DNA of 64,000 nt from Bdellovibrionales bacterium CG10_big_fil_rev_8_21_14_0_10_45_34 (lineage in GTDB: Bacteria > Bdellovibrionota > Bdellovibrionia > Bdellovibrionales > 1-14-0-10-45-34): positions 103,126 through 167,125 of the forward strand of contig PEZS01000002.1 in assembly GCA_002778785.1 (NCBI GenBank), given 5' to 3'. Positions 52,893 to 60,240 of the stretch are shown one piece after another; within the stretch, counting starts at the first letter, position 1; each line of letters begins with the position of its first letter. Made by a program: the position numbers and the translations under genes. The notes under the pieces are model-generated. The model had not been told where the DNA came from, did not search any database, and worked only from the letters and a program-made list of their open reading frames with translations.

Positions 52893-54950
52893 ATGTTCAA
52901 CCTAAAGGTTCAAGGCCAGCGCGTTTCTCATCTTCCTTTTGAAGAACTAAAAACGCAGGGATATCTTGAATGTATCGAATCCGCCATTCGGATCGCCAAG
53001 GAGAAGCTAGACAAAATTAAGTCTCTTCCTGCTGGCTTTGATAATACGATCTTAGGTCTTGACGAATGCTCAGATGACCTGCGCATTGCTTCGAATCTCT
53101 ATCATGCTATTTTTGCGGCACACGGGAATGAACGCATTCGAGCGTTGGCCGCGCCAATTAGTCAAAAGATTACAGAGTTTTCAAATGACTTACTTTTAGA
53201 CGAAGCATTGTTCGGCAAAGTCGAAGCCGTCTACCAGAACAAGACTCAGCTTTCGCTGGGCACAGAGCACACGACTTTGTTAGAAAAAACTTATCGCGAC
53301 TTTGTACGTAATGGAGCGCAGTTAAACATCGAACAGAAATCGCAATTGCGAAAGATTGATGACGAGCTTTCTAAGTGTGCGCCAGAGTTTTCAAATCGAG
53401 TATTGAAGGCAACTAATAGTTTTGAACTTCATATCACTCTTGAGAAGGATCTCGAGGGAATCCCCCAAGATGCCATAGCAGAAGCGAAGGCCAAAGCGGC
53501 AGACCGTGGTGGTTGGATATTTACACTACAGGCACCGAGCCTAACGCCTTTTTTGACTTACTGTAAAAATCGAGAACTCAGAAAACAAATGTGGCTTCAG
53601 TACAACTCGAGATGCTTGGTTGGCGAAGAGACGACCGTCGAGCTTGTTAAAGAGATAGTGAAATTGCGGCACCAAAGAGCGCACCTACTCGGCTTTAAAT
53701 CTCACGCTGAATATGTATTAGAAGAGCGCATGGCGAAGTCTGCACACCAAGTGAATAACTTTTTACAAGAGCTCAAGCAAGCTTACCTACCTGCAGCCAA
53801 ACGCGAAATGGATGAACTCAACACCTTTGCTAAAAACGAATTAGGTTTTAAGGATGATGTTGCGCCCTGGGACGTGAGCTTTTTGATCGAGAAGAAGAAA
53901 GAGAAAGACTTTCACTTTAGCGAAGAAGAACTTCGTCCCTACTTTGAACTTAGACAAACGCAAAAAGGGTTGATGGACCTTACAGAAAAGCTCTTTAAGG
54001 TGCGGTTTCAAAAAACAAGTTTTGCTCTTTATCACGATCTCATCGAAAGCTACGAAGTGCTCGAAGCAAGCGGAGAGCACTTAGGTTTTATTCACTTGGA
54101 TCTTTTTGCCCGCGATACAAAGCAAGGTGGTGCTTGGATGACGGCTTGGGTTGATCAAGGCAAATTCGACCAAAAAATCGTGCGACCTCATATTGCCATT
54201 GTGTGCAACTTCCGCCAGCCTTCTGAGGAACATAAGACTCTTCTTAATTTTATAGAAGCGCGCACACTCTTTCATGAGTTCGGCCATGCTCTTCACGGGT
54301 TGTTTTCAAAGTGTACCACCAACAGTTTGAGCGGCACCAACGTCTATTGGGATTTTGTGGAGCTGCCATCACAGTTTATGGAAAACTGGTTACTAGAACA
54401 AGACGTTGTGAACAAGTTTGCGACCCATTACAAAACCGGAGAAACCTTGCCACCGCAGTTGTTAAAGAAACTGCGCGATTCACAGCACTTCATGGCTGGC
54501 TACTATGGCGTCAGGCAGCTGAGCTTTGGAACTCTCGATATGGCCTGGCACTCTAAATCTTTAAACGAGCTTGAAGGTAGTGTTTTAGGTTCTCAAGATT
54601 TTCAACCTTTTGAAAAAGAATCTCTACAAGACTTACTTCTTATGCCGCAGGTGCCTGGCACGTCCATGTCTGCAGCCTTCTCGCACATTTTTGCTGGAGG
54701 TTACTCAGCCGGCTATTACTCTTACAAGTGGGCCGAAGTGATGGATGCAGATGCCTTTGAAGCTTTCAAAGAAAAGGGTCTGTTTGATCCAGCGGTGGCT
54801 CAGTCGTTTAAATCAGAGATTCTCGAGCGCGGCGGCAGCGAGCATCCAGAAACTTTGTACAAACGATTTCGCGGAAGACTCCCCACCCCCGACGCGCTTT
54901 TGCGCCGGGATGGAATCGCAAGTTTTGAAGAACAAAAATCTGAGAGCTAA
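52893..54950 (+). CDS. M3-family oligopeptidase
   Basis: Thimet-oligopeptidase/PrlC-like cytoplasmic zinc endopeptidase of 685 residues that cleaves short peptides. The zinc motif is HEFGH in LFHEFGHALHGLF (H at residue 461), followed by a Glu in VELPSQFMENW. No signal peptide is present, in contrast to the M3 lipoprotein at 35-37 kb. A clear AAGGAG precedes the ATG. The last 84 bp of the gene are repeated 2.9 kb downstream, suggesting its 3' end has been used as an insertion site; the C-terminus now ends ASFEEQKSES. Confidence 0.92.
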   Translation: MFNLKVQGQRVSHLPFEELKTQGYLECIESAIRIAKEKLDKIKSLPAGFDNTILGLDECSDDLRIASNLYHAIFAAHGNERIRALAAPISQKITEFSNDLLLDEALFGKVEAVYQNKTQLSLGTEHTTLLEKTYRDFVRNGAQLNIEQKSQLRKIDDELSKCAPEFSNRVLKATNSFELHITLEKDLEGIPQDAIAEAKAKAADRGGWIFTLQAPSLTPFLTYCKNRELRKQMWLQYNSRCLVGEETTVELVKEIVKLRHQRAHLLGFKSHAEYVLEERMAKSAHQVNNFLQELKQAYLPAAKREMDELNTFAKNELGFKDDVAPWDVSFLIEKKKEKDFHFSEEELRPYFELRQTQKGLMDLTEKLFKVRFQKTSFALYHDLIESYEVLEASGEHLGFIHLDLFARDTKQGGAWMTAWVDQGKFDQKIVRPHIAIVCNFRQPSEEHKTLLNFIEARTLFHEFGHALHGLFSKCTTNSLSGTNVYWDFVELPSQFMENWLLEQDVVNKFATHYKTGETLPPQLLKKLRDSQHFMAGYYGVRQLSFGTLDMAWHSKSLNELEGSVLGSQDFQPFEKESLQDLLLMPQVPGTSMSAAFSHIFAGGYSAGYYSYKWAEVMDADAFEAFKEKGLFDPAVAQSFKSEILERGGSEHPETLYKRFRGRLPTPDALLRRDGIASFEEQKSES
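54833..54916 (+). repeat. 84-bp gene-end repeat, copy 1
   Basis: The 3' end of the oligopeptidase gene. Matches 57717-57800 at 80 of 84 positions; the first 63 bases are identical. A 21-bp part (54901-54921) is also found at 57032-57052. See copy 2 for the comparison. Confidence 0.9.
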
Positions 54951-55012: not shown

Positions 55013-56050
55013 TTATTCATTCGTAGGTTCTGGTAATCTCTCAAAGTAATAGCAGAATTTGCTATCTTGCTCACCAGGAGGGAGTACTTCAAAACTTTTG
55101 GTCACAGTTCGGAACTCAGTAACACCTGTTAGCAAATAATCGCCGAATTGACGAACTCCGATTAGCGTTGGGTAATAATGAAGCGAGAATGGAACGATAA
55201 GCGCTTCAAGTTTAGGATCAAACCTAGCATGGTTCCTGTGATAATGATGAACTCCTACGTCACGATCAATCGTCATAAGTCTTACGTTGATATATTGCCA
55301 TGTGTTCGTATGACAACTAGATTGCCAATTGTCCGGATCACAATACTGGGTTGCTTCTAATTGCCACCCCTGATAAACCTCTGGATCCGAAAAAAGCGGC
55401 CCTGCATCTGGGGCTTTAGAGGGCTTTCTCAAGCGAAAATAATAGCGGTCAGGCAACAAATTCCCCCTTGCCCAACAGCGTCCCTCCCAGGACCCAGCAA
55501 TCTCTGCGGGGTTGGGTCGAGTCGAAAGATTCTTATTAAGGAACAATTCGTAAAGATGCTCCTGGGGTCGTTGGGCTTGAGCCGCCTCTTGCAACGCTTG
55601 CTTCGATTGTTGAGCTAGTAGATCTCTTCCCAACTGATCTAAAAACTGATGGTCCGGTATACCAACAAGATGTCCCGTCTCGTGGACTGCAAGTACAAAA
55701 GCTTCATCTGGCGTCACTCCATGGGTTTCAAAAAAGGGAACGCTGAGCACTATATGATCTGGTTTCTCAAGCGGTAGCGCTAAAGCCGCCTTTTCTTGAC
55801 CCTCGTCGAACAGACGTTCCCGCTCCGATCGCTTAATGGGCTTACTTCTAACAGCTTCAATCTTTCCCAACCAGTTGCCCCTAAGGACTTCGTCATTAAT
55901 CGATTTACTGGATCGAATAGCAACGTGAGCGCGATCAAGAGCAAAGTGAAACCGGGTCTCGTATATGTCGGCTCCACCGCCTTCCTTTCCTGCCATGGCA
56001 CAAAGGGGGGTTAGCCAAAGAAGGCTTACACTTAGAAGTTTTGTCTTCAT
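55013..56050 (-). CDS. Secreted metzincin-like protein, partner of TIGR02147 regulator
   Basis: A signal peptide ends near residue 20 (CAMA). The zinc-binding motif is HETGHLVGIPD at residues 123-133, that is HExxHxxGxxD, a metzincin pattern; the third ligand could be D133 or H134. The remaining chain is of mixed composition with several cysteines and no known domain. It may be a secreted protease. Its start overlaps the stop of the TIGR02147 gene by four bases, so the two are translationally coupled, and it lies inside the inserted-looking segment. Confidence 0.7.
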   Translation of the reverse strand: MKTKLLSVSLLWLTPLCAMAGKEGGGADIYETRFHFALDRAHVAIRSSKSINDEVLRGNWLGKIEAVRSKPIKRSERERLFDEGQEKAALALPLEKPDHIVLSVPFFETHGVTPDEAFVLAVHETGHLVGIPDHQFLDQLGRDLLAQQSKQALQEAAQAQRPQEHLYELFLNKNLSTRPNPAEIAGSWEGRCWARGNLLPDRYYFRLRKPSKAPDAGPLFSDPEVYQGWQLEATQYCDPDNWQSSCHTNTWQYINVRLMTIDRDVGVHHYHRNHARFDPKLEALIVPFSLHYYPTLIGVRQFGDYLLTGVTEFRTVTKSFEVLPPGEQDSKFCYYFERLPEPTNE

Positions 56051-56838
56051 TTCATTCTCCTCATTTTTATTTCCTTATTAGAGTTCGCTGTTACTGGATA
56101 AAGCGAAACCCCCAGATGATAGACTCGAGTGGGTTTCTTGTTTCTTTCAAAAAAATTGCACAAGTCTCGTCGAAAGTTCTTAATTATTTCTCGCGCCTCA
56201 TCTAGGTCTTCAGGATTAACTGCCATGGTCATTGAGGTATGACTCCTCAGATCGACGGGAACCTCTTCAAGTGCTCGAATAGACATTTCAAGAACCTGTC
56301 GCTGCAGGTTTCTAGCGGCTTTGCTTGTTAAATTTCCGTTGATATTTGTCGCTCGCGCATTCTTTGAAGTGTCTACCCATGATCCATCTGGCTTGATCTT
56401 TAGCAGACCAACTCGCTGGAGCCGCTCAACTGCAATTCGCACTTCAGTTTGGGATATCCCAAGGGTTTTTGCTAGGTACTTACAGTCGGGCTTGAAGTCG
56501 ACGGCCCGGATGAGTTCAAGGATTGCATAGTGATACCAATCGGATATGATCGCATACGTATCAAGAGTGATTTGCTGATAACCATCGTTTTTTCTTCTTT
56601 GATGAGATGCTCGTTCATTAAGCTCCTCAAGCTTCATACCCAAGGCAAGTCCCAATCGTTCACGCATTTTTTTTGTGATGGGCCGCTTTCCTCTGAGCAT
56701 GGCAGATAAAGGTGACGCCTCTACTCCTAGGGATCGTGCAAACGCTCTCAGGGAGTAGCTAGAGTTCTTTCGACATCGCTCTACAAACTCTTTCTGAAGC
56801 AGCATGCGAAATTCAGATTTATCTTTCGACATTTCCAT
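56047..56838 (-). CDS. TIGR02147-family regulator 1
   Basis: Member of the TIGR02147/DUF4423 family, known from Fibrobacter and Bdellovibrio, with unknown biological role. The N-terminal 60 residues form an XRE-like helix-turn-helix (YSLRAFARSLGVEASPL, SAMLRGKRPITKKM), and the C-terminal part has a second winged-helix-like segment (YLAKTLGISQTEV, RIAVERLQRVGLLKI). I use the ATG at 56838, 41 bases downstream of a 21-bp dyad and seven bases after a TATTCT; the frame continues to 56862. The product gene is coupled to the secreted metzincin-like gene, suggesting dedicated control. Confidence 0.82.
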   Translation of the reverse strand: MEMSKDKSEFRMLLQKEFVERCRKNSSYSLRAFARSLGVEASPLSAMLRGKRPITKKMRERLGLALGMKLEELNERASHQRRKNDGYQQITLDTYAIISDWYHYAILELIRAVDFKPDCKYLAKTLGISQTEVRIAVERLQRVGLLKIKPDGSWVDTSKNARATNINGNLTSKAARNLQRQVLEMSIRALEEVPVDLRSHTSMTMAVNPEDLDEAREIIKNFRRDLCNFFERNKKPTRVYHLGVSLYPVTANSNKEIKMRRMK

Positions 56839-56879
56839 GGTGCAGAGAATACACAATCTCATTGCGCCCCGCGACTCAT

Positions 56880-56900
56880 TTTGTCACAAAGTGTGACAAA
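56880..56900. promoter_or_regulatory. Operator-like dyad of TIGR02147 gene 1
   Basis: TTTGTCAC, spacer AAAGT, GTGACAAA. It lies 41 bases upstream of ATG 56838. A further half-site (TTGTCAC, 56905-56911) continues at the 12-bp spacing. The layout matches the dyad of gene 2 at 60113. Confidence 0.7.
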
Positions 56901-57031
56901 CCAATTGTCACAGGTAATTTCTTCATTTGAAAAACACCGGAAGAACTTAAAAAACTCGCGCAGAGCTAGTGAGTATCCAAAAAGCTAGGATTAACGTTAT
57001 AGCCTAAGCCATCCAACACTAGGCTCACTAG

Positions 57032-57052
57032 TGCGCCGGGATGGAATCGCAA
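57032..57052. repeat. 21-bp fragment of the oligopeptidase gene end
   Basis: Exact copy of 54901-54921 (TGCGCCGGGATGGAATCGC, then AA), lying between the TIGR02147 gene and the BrnT promoter. Together with copies 1 and 2 it divides the accessory segment into two modules. Confidence 0.8.
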
Positions 57053-57142
57053 ATCGATAATCTCTTCATCTTGAAGTGAAGTCTTGAAGAAGTTCGTTTG
57101 ACCTGTAGCCTCCCTACGGTCTCTGCCGCGTAATTCATTGTA

Positions 57143-57171
57143 TTGACATTGGAGCTACGCTGTTGTACCAT
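57143..57171 (+). promoter_or_regulatory. Promoter of brnTA
   Basis: TTGACA (57143-57148), 17-bp spacer, TACCAT (57166-57171). The predicted start of transcription falls at the ATG of brnT (57177), so the message is probably leaderless. Confidence 0.7.
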
Positions 57172-57176
57172 TGCTT

Positions 57177-57461
57177 ATGATCTTCGATTGGGACGACCTT
57201 AAAGCCGAATCCAACAAGAGTAAGCACGGAGTGAGTTTTTCAGAGGCCGCAACTAGTTTTTCTGATCCAAACGCCATCGAGTTTCTCGACGGAAAGAACT
57301 CTGACAAAGAGGACCGATGGATATTGGTGGGACTCTCATCAAAGCTCCAGCTTCTTCTGATCGTTTTTGTAGAGCGAGAAGAAAAGGTCATTCGTATTGT
57401 CTCGGCGCGAAAGGCAGTTAAAGACGAGATTAACCAATATTTTTCAAGGATAAAAAAGTGA
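57177..57461 (+). CDS. brnT: BrnT family toxin
   Basis: Toxin of the BrnT/BrnA type II toxin-antitoxin system, a RelE-fold ribonuclease that cuts RNA and stops translation. Family features: FDWDDLKAESNKSKHGVSF, the acidic/Asn region before it, a basic RIVSARKAVKDE near the C-terminus, and about 94 residues. The start at ATG 57177 lies six bases after the -10 box; a TTG at 57171 is possible. It overlaps brnA by four bases (GTGA). Toxin first, antitoxin second is the normal order for this family. Confidence 0.9.
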   Translation: MIFDWDDLKAESNKSKHGVSFSEAATSFSDPNAIEFLDGKNSDKEDRWILVGLSSKLQLLLIVFVEREEKVIRIVSARKAVKDEINQYFSRIKK

Positions 57462-57703
57462 AAGTTAAATACGATCTTTCAAAAGCGAAAAGTGCAAAGA
57501 AGCGTCGAGGCTTAAAAGTTCAGAAAAGCTTTCGGCTCGATCCTGAGGTCTTGCTGTGGCTCGAAGAACAGGGTGAAAAACAAGGCATGGGATACCAGAC
57601 TTTTCTTAACTGGTATCTAAACCGACAAATAGCTGAGGAGAAGACAACCAGCGAGCGGCTTGCTGCCCTCGAGGCTGAGATCTTTAAGAAGAAAAGAGCT
57701 TGA
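57458..57703 (+). CDS. brnA: BrnA family antitoxin
   Basis: Antitoxin of 81 residues that binds BrnT and represses the promoter through a ribbon-helix-helix-like domain: the basic N-terminus and RGLKVQKSFRLDPEVLLWLEEQG, then FLNWYLNRQIAEE. It starts with GTG overlapping the toxin stop. The end of the gene is followed after 13 bases by the repeat of the oligopeptidase gene end. Confidence 0.88.
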   Translation: MKVKYDLSKAKSAKKRRGLKVQKSFRLDPEVLLWLEEQGEKQGMGYQTFLNWYLNRQIAEEKTTSERLAALEAEIFKKKRA

Positions 57704-57716
57704 AACGAAGGCATAA

Positions 57717-57800
57717 CGGCAGCGAGCATCCAGAAACTTTGTACAAACGATTTCGCGGAAGACTCCCCACCCCCGACGCACTACTTCGCCGGGATGGAAT
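57717..57800 (+). repeat. 84-bp gene-end repeat, copy 2 (displaced 3' end)
   Basis: Matches the 3' end of the oligopeptidase gene at 80 of 84 positions. The first 63 bases are identical to copy 1; the four differences (GCG/GCA, CTT/CTA, TTG/CTT) are all synonymous, and the reading frame continues in this copy as RRDGIKVLPGTN to a different stop at 57822-57824. It thus looks like the displaced original end of such a gene, not a random piece. Confidence 0.85.
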
Positions 57801-57955
57801 AAAGGTTTTGCCCGGGACAAACTAACTAGGTTCGTACCAACCATTGAAACTGCACCAACATCCGACTCCGAGTCAGACCAAGAAGCACACACAGTATAGA
57901 CGCGCGAACAGGCTTCAAAAACACAACTCGCGCGCATCTAAACATGGGCAAGTAA

Positions 57956-59161
57956 TTACTTAAATCGGCTTGCGTAGTCTTCAAAAACTTTTTGAATCTT
58001 TTCTAACTTCTCTAGGCATTCTTCTTTAGTGCCGCTCAAAGAAATCCGCTGTTCGGGTACAAGTTTCTCTGTCGCAAGAGTACAGTATCCCGAAGACCAA
58101 GCAACCCCTCCGAACTTTAGGTATTGTACGCTCGCGGCGAAAGGATCTTTAAGTTCAAGCCATTCAGGCTTGTTTCTCTGAGCATTAATTTTATACACAA
58201 AAGAAGATGATTTACCGCACTCGCGTCGAACATATTCCAGCTCTTTGGTTAAATCGGCGCCGTCATACAATTTGATTTCTCGCGCAGTCACAAAGAGATT
58301 CGGATGCTGGACGTAGGAATATGCTGTAGCCCCAGTAAGAAAAGATGAACCTTCTCTTCTGTAGACTCCATCTTTAAAAGCACATAACTCAGAGAAAATT
58401 CCAACCTGCACTCTTGGACTAATAGACTGTTGAAGTTGCTTTAAACCTTCTCTAAATCGTGTGGAAAAAGTAAGAGCAGTTGCAGAACGAGCATGCTTTC
58501 CTTCCTGTATCCAAACCGTCCTCACATCGTTTGTGGTCTCATCTTTATACTTATATTCGGCGTGATACGTCAGAGAATAGTAAACTTCATGAAAGATAAG
58601 AGCTGCTTGATTATTGCCGTCCATAAGGTCTATTCCGGCAGCATTCACCGTTATCGACCGGTCCTGCCTGGTCGCAAGCTGGTAGAGTTTTCCGCCACCT
58701 CTTCTATAGGCCTCCCAGTCCACAATCGTATCGTGTAACTCAATCTGAGCCAAAGGCAGCGGCGACCGATACCACTGATGCATTTCGATAGTCAAGAGTA
58801 GCCCCTCGTAGCTCATTGGATCGAGTAGTTCAATTTCATAAAGCTTGACTGCAATTTTCTCTAACGCCTCGGGCTTGAGACCTAGATCGCCCAAAGCGAA
58901 CTTTAGTCTCTCGACGTCAGCGCCCCTGGCCGTTAGGTTGGCAAAATACGGATTCAAATGAAGTCCCTTTTCATAGAGGTCTACCAGGTAAAGCTTGGAT
59001 CTGTCGCCGGGCGGAAAAATCCCTACGCCTCCATGAGTGCCGGTTCCCCAGCGAGGCGCAGACATTTTCTGGGCCTGTACAGCCTGCCCAGTTAATAGCT
59101 CGAACACAATCGCTGTGACACTTGCTAATACTAGATTTTTTAAATTTGATCTAAGTTTCAT
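57956..59161 (-). CDS. Secreted protein, partner of TIGR02147 regulator 2
   Basis: A signal peptide (about 30 residues, ending VQA) precedes a 370-residue chain not recognised as a known family. A degenerate zinc-type motif is present in LIFHEVYYSLTYH: HE followed by five residues and no HxxH partner, so catalysis is doubtful. Three cysteines are near the C-terminus. It lies 28 bp after the second TIGR02147 gene and is probably its target, in the same arrangement as the first module. Confidence 0.6.
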   Translation of the reverse strand: MKLRSNLKNLVLASVTAIVFELLTGQAVQAQKMSAPRWGTGTHGGVGIFPPGDRSKLYLVDLYEKGLHLNPYFANLTARGADVERLKFALGDLGLKPEALEKIAVKLYEIELLDPMSYEGLLLTIEMHQWYRSPLPLAQIELHDTIVDWEAYRRGGGKLYQLATRQDRSITVNAAGIDLMDGNNQAALIFHEVYYSLTYHAEYKYKDETTNDVRTVWIQEGKHARSATALTFSTRFREGLKQLQQSISPRVQVGIFSELCAFKDGVYRREGSSFLTGATAYSYVQHPNLFVTAREIKLYDGADLTKELEYVRRECGKSSSFVYKINAQRNKPEWLELKDPFAASVQYLKFGGVAWSSGYCTLATEKLVPEQRISLSGTKEECLEKLEKIQKVFEDYASRFK

Positions 59162-59189
59162 GTCTCGTTACTCCAATTTCTTTTGGTTA

Positions 59190-60071
59190 TTAATCTTGTA
59201 TTGTTTCAAGAGGGAACAAACTCAACGACAACTGATAAACCTGCCTGGATCTGCCGCCCTCCAAAAAGGTGCACAGCTCTTCGCTAAACTTTTGAATCAT
59301 TTGCTTCGCCTTCGGGATCAACCTTGGGTCAATGTTCATTGTCATTCCAATCTGAGATCTGCACTCGATCGGCACTTCATCTAGAGCATCAATTGCCTTT
59401 GTCAGCATTTGTTTTTGATGAATTCGGTGAGCTGAAGTCGTTGTGGCCTTATCGTCAGTCGTCATATCTTTTCGCTTCTTTTTGTATCCCGCTTTTACTG
59501 GTTCGATATAACCAAGCTCAACAAGTCTTTGCATAGCAGCTGTCGACTGAGCTTCAGAGATCTTCAGGCGTTTGGAAATGTATTTCGCAGTTGGCTCGAA
59601 CCTGGGGTTTTGACACATTTCCATAAGAGCTATGTGATACCAATCTGCGATAACCTGAAATTCTTCTAGCGAAATAGTTGTTTGCACATTTTCTTGAGTC
59701 TTTTTTGCGTGAGAGCGAGAACCACTTAGGAGGGCCGAACCACCGGGCCCAACTGAAATTCCATCACGACTCTCGGCTTTGCTTCCAGCGGTGAACGACT
59801 TTGGCTTCGAATTCCTTTTAGAATTCTGAACATCGTGCAAAGAAAGCCAAAACCTTTGGGCGTTAACGGGATCCAGTTCCAAGGCCATCATAAGTTTTTT
59901 TGAAGTACGGTCTGATGGGACTCTTTTACCAGAGATAATTTGTGAAAGAGCTCCGTCGTTGACACCTATACTGCGGGCAAAAGCGCGAATAGAATACCTG
60001 GGGTTCTGTTCGCATCGTCTTTCAAGCTCACGTCTGAGAGCCAGTCTGTAAAATGGGGCTGGAGTAGTCAT
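59190..60071 (-). CDS. TIGR02147-family regulator 2
   Basis: Second TIGR02147/DUF4423 paralogue, 293 residues. The N-terminal helix-turn-helix is YSIRAFARSIGVNDGAL, SQIISGKRVPSDRT, near-identical in the scaffold to paralogue 1 but different at the recognition part (NDGALSQII against EASPLSAML). The C-terminal half has the helix-turn-helix-like YISKRLKISEAQSTAAM and RLVELGYIEP. A Gly/Ser/Lys-rich linker (SKPKSFTAGSK) joins them. A 21-bp dyad sits 41 bases upstream of the ATG. The partner is the secreted protein 28 bp downstream. Confidence 0.82.
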   Translation of the reverse strand: MTTPAPFYRLALRRELERRCEQNPRYSIRAFARSIGVNDGALSQIISGKRVPSDRTSKKLMMALELDPVNAQRFWLSLHDVQNSKRNSKPKSFTAGSKAESRDGISVGPGGSALLSGSRSHAKKTQENVQTTISLEEFQVIADWYHIALMEMCQNPRFEPTAKYISKRLKISEAQSTAAMQRLVELGYIEPVKAGYKKKRKDMTTDDKATTTSAHRIHQKQMLTKAIDALDEVPIECRSQIGMTMNIDPRLIPKAKQMIQKFSEELCTFLEGGRSRQVYQLSLSLFPLETIQD

Positions 60072-60112
60072 GCGGACTGTTGTACACGGGCTGGCGAAAC
60101 CCTCAAATCATT

Positions 60113-60133
60113 TTTGAAGCAAAGTGCTTCAAA
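60113..60133. promoter_or_regulatory. Operator-like dyad of TIGR02147 gene 2
   Basis: TTTGAAGC, spacer AAAGT, GCTTCAAA. It is 41 bases upstream of ATG 60071, with a minus-strand TACAAC (4 of 6 with the -10 consensus) seven bases before the ATG and TTGAGG 16 bases before that. Confidence 0.7.
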
Positions 60134-60240
60134 CTGCAGAATCCCGCCGAAGCAGGTAGGAATTACATTAAGTTTAGGCCAGCCTTTCATAATTATGATC
60201 GCCTCTCTTTAGAAGGCAGCTAAACGGCAACCTTTCGGAG

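Follow-up and report, generated by a model that had tools for sequence, protein, structure and literature searches.

The closest described counterparts of the operons analysed here are those of the C proteins of type II restriction-modification systems, of which we compared C.PvuII, C.AhdI, C.Esp1396I and C.Csp231I (PMC4824078). The window, by which we mean the whole 64,000-nucleotide stretch of the genome of Bdellovibrionales bacterium CG10_big_fil_rev_8_21_14_0_10_45_34 that was analysed, contains two regulator genes that share with the C proteins an XRE helix-turn-helix (HTH) and palindromic operators upstream of their own gene. A further likeness is an effector on the same message; a leaderless transcript, predicted here from sequence signs, and autogenous control would be others. 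C proteins are small, single-domain proteins that use two palindromes, one of them overlapping the -35 element, whereas the operators here have three half-sites, none of which lies on the -35, and the regulators possess a winged-helix/DUF4423 domain in addition, are paired with an exported protein and occur in a genome as up to tens of paralogs that differ in their half-sites. Two C-protein hallmarks were looked for and not found: the linked gene encodes an exported protein instead of an endonuclease and methyltransferase, and there is no second operator on the -35, all half-sites ending upstream of it. By analogy, the operons would work like those of the C proteins while falling outside the C-protein family.

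Regulator families that co-evolve with their DNA motifs have been described for LacI (PMC4052901), GntR (PMC4494728), IclR (PMC8222616), and MerR (PMC5045206). The regulators studied here resemble them in being mostly local and, by prediction, autoregulated, in their residue-to-base correlations, and in their palindromic sites. Those families regulate mainly metabolic operons; unlike them, the present regulators are of the DUF4423 family and combine a fixed three-half-site leaderless design with one dedicated target and many paralogs per genome. Among solved structures, the nearest sequence match of the HTH is HigA (2icp, E 5e-7). Unlike HigA antitoxins, the regulators carry an extra domain and have a downstream, exported partner; the partners have signal peptides, and none of the 54 scanned matched a HigB/RelE toxin family. 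For the model of the complete regulator, no fold match below E 0.001 was obtained. The family TIGR02147, to which the regulators belong, is not named in the open-access literature that we searched (subscription papers were outside its scope); a DUF4423 protein, Bd3700, is listed among the proteins upregulated during growth inside prey (PMC12546842).

Two regulator modules and their operators

Both window regulators exceed the curated TIGR02147 cut-off of 50 bits (121.3 and 100.8 bits), as had been predicted, and both contain PF14394 (DUF4423; E 4e-41 and 7e-38). The original prediction had placed dyads at 56880-56900 and 60113-60133, each at the same distance from the ATG and each followed by a -10-like hexamer, and all of these elements were found (Table 1). 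The dyads had been read as 8-bp arms around an AAAGT spacer; because the outer A and T of AAAGT pair, the arms are in fact 9 bp and the spacer 3 bp, which gives TTTGTCACA-ctt-TGTGACAAA for operator 1 and TTTGAAGCA-ctt-TGCTTCAAA for operator 2 on the coding strand. The two-arm dyad is real but incomplete, since a third half-site upstream had been overlooked. It is clear in operator 1, where the complete coding-strand operator reads TGTGACAA-ttggt-TTGTCACA-ctt-TGTGACAA, and weak in operator 2. Both genes have the three half-sites, 39 to 46 bp before the start codon, that define a self-operator in the subtype with the SLRAFA signature, the h1 half-site of operator 2 being distant and weak. The two upstream regions are 71% identical within the dyad and 22% identical outside it; the two modules are therefore not recent duplicates, a possibility that the prediction had itself raised.

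Table 1. Positions of the regulators, operator elements and exported partners in the window
Feature	Position	Strand	Remarks
Regulator 1, TIGR02147/DUF4423	56047..56838	-	ATG 56838, start predicted to be leaderless; recognition segment V39 E40 A41 S42 P43 L44 S45 A46
Operator 1, half-site h3	56880..56888	-	TGTGACAAA on coding strand; ends 41 bp before ATG 56838
Operator 1, half-site h2, inverted	56892..56900	+	TGTGACAAA on + strand
Operator 1, half-site h1	56905..56912	-	TGTGACAA on coding strand; h1 obeys the code family-wide
-10-like hexamer TATTCT	56846..56851	-	seven bases before the ATG of regulator 1; compare the family-wide -10 signal at -13/-12
Exported protein 1	55013..56050	-	4-bp overlap with regulator 1; has a signal peptide, mature AGKEGGG... 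and a HETGHLVGIPDH motif
Regulator 2, TIGR02147/DUF4423	59190..60071	-	ATG 60071; recognition segment V N D G A L S Q
Operator 2, half-site h3	60113..60121	-	TGCTTCAAA on coding strand; ends 41 bp before ATG 60071
Operator 2, half-site h2, inverted	60125..60133	+	TGCTTCAAA on + strand
Operator 2, possible distant h1, weak	60149..60154	-	TGCTTC, gap 14
-10-like hexamer TACAAC	60079..60084	-	seven bases before the ATG of regulator 2
Exported protein 2	57956..59161	-	begins 28 bp beyond the stop of regulator 2; GTGTHGG near mature N terminus, ALIFHE motif

The surroundings of module 1 contain repeats. The 84-bp 3' end of an oligopeptidase-like gene (54833-54916) recurs with 95% identity at 57717-57800, on the far side of the module, and a further 21-bp copy lies at 57034-57054, where it separates the regulator module from a BrnT/BrnA-like pair; together these repeats bear signs of stepwise insertion at the gene end. 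The pair itself occupies 57171-57703, between the two modules, and consists of a toxin, BrnT (PF04365, E 2e-25), and a BrnA-like antitoxin whose score misses the Pfam cut-off. A similar 89-bp repeat flanks another module (L006). The dyads might be recombination sites, repeats of mobile modules or RNA structures instead of operators, and the direct repeats around these two modules speak for this, but such flanking repeats occur at only 7 of 193 tested genes and are distinct from the dyads, the dyad would not be transcribed, given its place upstream of the predicted start, and its bases covary with the recognition helix (see below). We regard this explanation as extremely improbable.

Operator design and recognition code across the subtype

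The subtype was defined as TIGR02147 genes with the SLRAFA HTH signature and was sampled in over 50 genomes of this order and at 54 named loci, with 207 non-duplicate genes making up the full set. Named matches come from Bdellovibrionales, Bacteriovoracaceae and similar genomes, including Bdellovibrio bacteriovorus kdesi, in which a related regulator (L163) has a partial operator; the source genome has 14 TIGR02147 genes and its relatives have 1 to 31. The shared design is TGnnnnnn-(1-7)-nnnnnnCA-ctt-TGnnnnnn, located 39 to 46 bp (mode, 42) before the predicted leaderless start codon, and the gap between h1 and h2 ranges from 1 to 7 bp, a variation that a rigid dimer would not tolerate. With a threshold chosen after seeing the training set and then left unchanged, 109 of 207 subtype genes passed, with about 2 expected from dinucleotide-shuffled upstream regions; at the next threshold, 86 of 207 passed, with 0 expected. 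Since the 39- to 46-bp window is part of this final rule, distances under it are not independent evidence. The first 68 genes do provide such evidence: 36 of them scored ≥13 (2 expected), and the best sites of 25 of these 36 lay 41 to 45 bp before the start although no distance was imposed. The expectation that the dyad would recur upstream of other TIGR02147 genes at a fixed distance thus holds across families of the order within the SLRAFA subtype, but not in other subtypes, in which 1 of 20 genes passed; the design therefore belongs to one subfamily. The strict search was failed by 98 of the 207 subtype genes, including many of the sampled genes of genus g14, which means that the operator is variable or that part of the subtype functions differently. 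A scan with the conserved-core pattern (TTGnnnCACTTTGnnnCAA, 2 mismatches) was unspecific (154 matches versus 97 in a reversed control), and the design must therefore be located by palindromy and distance.

For comparison of operators with regulators, half-sites are written TG-b3-b4-b5... and the residues of the recognition segment are numbered x1 to x8; the HTH aligns without gaps. Residue x3 goes with base b3, Pro, Val or Ala being paired with T, Gln with A, His with G, and Asp or Ser with C. This rule was recorded first and was then tested on genes not yet fetched, with the operator located while ignoring b3. Blind predictions were correct for 15 of 16 and 17 of 19 genes and, after the rule had been restated, for 30 of 30 (62 of 65 in total); among the informative predictions of a base other than T, 4 of 5, 2 of 4, and 11 of 11 were correct in the three rounds. 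All three misses have Ser at x3, a residue that seems to accept C or T and that is not clean in the data (13 C, 2 T, 1 G). A second rule, that x8 = E/D/N with x2 other than H gives b5 = C, was right in 28 of 31 cases. The two window regulators agree with the code (x3/x4/x8 of A/S/A versus D/G/Q, b3-b5 of T-G-A versus C-T-T). When the b3 code was checked for each half-site with b3 left free, it held in 81 of 87 cases for h1, 100 of 106 for h2, and 89 of 106 for h3, the least faithful of the three; each half-site, h1 included, thus obeys the code by itself, and the third half-site is therefore real. Covariation of the variable triplet with the recognition helix, which the original prediction had proposed as a check, is thus present, and blind predictions built on it hold.

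Such a correlation could also arise from common descent alone, if related regulators simply kept related upstream DNA; some test genes are indeed related to training genes, and near-identical helices have common operators. Descent would spread the signal over all columns, however, whereas among 253 protein columns and 109 pairs the best predictors were x3 for b3 (z 26), x4 for b4 (z 14), and x8 for b5 (z 11.5), and the runner-up column with a finite z for b3 reached 8.4. In addition, x3 and b3 change together across a set of 54 nearest-relative pairs (Fisher p = 4e-6), b3 changing when x3 changes class, and similar helices from genomes that belong to different families go with one and the same half-site: DPSLLSK (L069) and DVSLLSK (L114) both with TGTGGACA, and HPATLSQ (L139) and HPSSLSQ (L109) both with TGTAGCAA. 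Descent alone is thus very unlikely to account for the code, and there is strong reason to think that each regulator binds its own operator directly. In an AlphaFold model (mean pLDDT 89), x3 is predicted to be the first residue of the recognition helix, a position equivalent to Gln28 of the 434 repressor, where Gln goes with A. The residue-to-base chemistry is sensible and in agreement with the 434 repressor, which is a phage repressor with a different operator geometry; unlike in 434, seven residues are common at x3 here and select among four bases.

Promoter position and exported partners

In 78 operator-bearing genes, the promoters show a -10 element at -13/-12 together with a weakly conserved TTG at -36, and only 5 of the 78 have an SD-like tetramer; for these reasons, the messages look leaderless. 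About 6 bp separate the end of half-site h3 from the -35 that follows it, and no half-site overlaps the -35 or the -10. The weak -35 still matches better than shuffled sequence (3.1 versus 2.6 matches), and basal activity without an activator would therefore be possible. The activator position that had been proposed is borne out in its geometry, with the dyad centred near -52 directly upstream of the weak TTG at -36, while activation itself is an inference. Autorepression is common among XRE and MarR/ArsR-type regulators, and with the same private recognition, the regulators might instead keep their operon repressed until the winged-helix/DUF4423 domain receives a signal; the additional ArsR/MarR-like domain and the partial -35 would fit such a scheme. 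Against it, the half-sites are clear of both promoter elements, and the C proteins, XRE-type controllers with leaderless messages, act as activators when bound upstream and as repressors when bound to the operator on the -35 (PMC4824078). We consider autorepression possible but rather unlikely, and on promoter geometry we favour, with moderate confidence, activation of the regulator's own promoter.

A secreted-protein gene had been expected at once after each regulator. Both genes are there, the first overlapping its regulator and the second starting somewhat past the stop (Table 1). Among the 78 operator-bearing genes, the next gene starts within 30 bp of the regulator stop in 76, and in 45 the two genes overlap by 1 or 4 bp. 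A crude rule assigns a signal peptide to 61 of the 78 partners, and inspection by eye suggests that most of the remainder are exported too. Their mature N termini carry a GxxGxGG-like motif, an HE motif recurs, and HExxH or metzincin-like forms are kept in a few, including exported protein 1; the partners are possibly degenerate metallopeptidases. When 54 exported partners were scanned against Pfam and NCBIfam, no common family emerged, and no restriction or toxin family was matched. Recognizable relatives were found in only 2 other genomes of 141 for exported protein 1 and in 18 genomes for exported protein 2; the regulators, by contrast, were found at E < 1e-50 in 93 genomes. Judged by these searches, the partners are an undescribed, fast-diverging group.

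Several related arrangements were seen in the source genome. Three more modules of a regulator and an exported protein lie within about 13 kb (L021, C6:236000-254000). A near-palindrome resembling the dyads, TCGTCTCActtTGAGACAA, precedes the gene of a trypsin-like exported protein that has no TIGR02147 gene next to it (L039, G000:C6:217591-217609). Two TIGR02147 genes of another subtype (L029 and L030, on C1 and C6) do not precede the gene of a similar exported GGGG-protein but are oriented divergently from it.

Insulation and proposed mechanism

Each exact window operator occurs once in the 3.06-Mb genome, in which no site with 1 or 2 mismatches to either was found; sites with 3 mismatches are barely above the control. 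In one relative (G007), 21 operators use 20 distinct b3-b7 words. The proposal of paralogous regulators that each read their own half-site and each control their own exported protein is supported, on sequence grounds, by recurrence, covariation and blind predictions. The comparisons establish the operator, its geometry, its covariation with the helix, the coupling of the genes, and the uniqueness of the two window operators as features of the DNA, and the operons are probably self-addressed, auto-activating and leaderless.

We propose that a SLRAFA-subtype regulator consists of an N-terminal XRE/HigA-like HTH followed by the winged-helix/DUF4423 domain. The HTH would bind a private operator in which h1 and h3 are oriented along transcription and h2 is inverted, and whose end lies about 42 bp from the regulator's own leaderless start, directly upstream of a weak -35. 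Recognition would rest mainly on x3 reading b3, x4 (with x2) reading b4, and x8 reading b5. Binding would most likely activate the promoter, a positive autoregulation that would co-express the exported protein whose gene follows on the shared transcript, and different code residues would prevent cross-talk between the paralogs of one genome. We hold this model as a whole, in which a private three-half-site operator, its own regulator, a probably auto-activated leaderless operon and an exported partner form one unit, to be very likely. Counting against it are the subtype genes that fail the strict search, the variable gap between h1 and h2, the ambiguity of Ser at x3, and the better-than-shuffled match of the weak -35. 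With little more than even confidence, we further suggest an order-wide, self-expanding orthogonal system of paralogs, to which new exported proteins can be added singly without cross-talk and in which each member auto-activates a private leaderless promoter through a helix-to-half-site code that is largely readable.

The model would provide the first function hypothesis for the TIGR02147 family, for which no role is described in the open-access papers searched. The data set offers more than 100 regulators matched in nature to their operators and, for an XRE-type helix, a recognition code that was tested blind; it also yields predictions of the exported protein that each regulator controls in bacterial predators and their relatives. 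If the model is true, these bacteria would hold a natural library of regulator-promoter pairs insulated from one another and coupled to a rapidly evolving arsenal of exported proteins.
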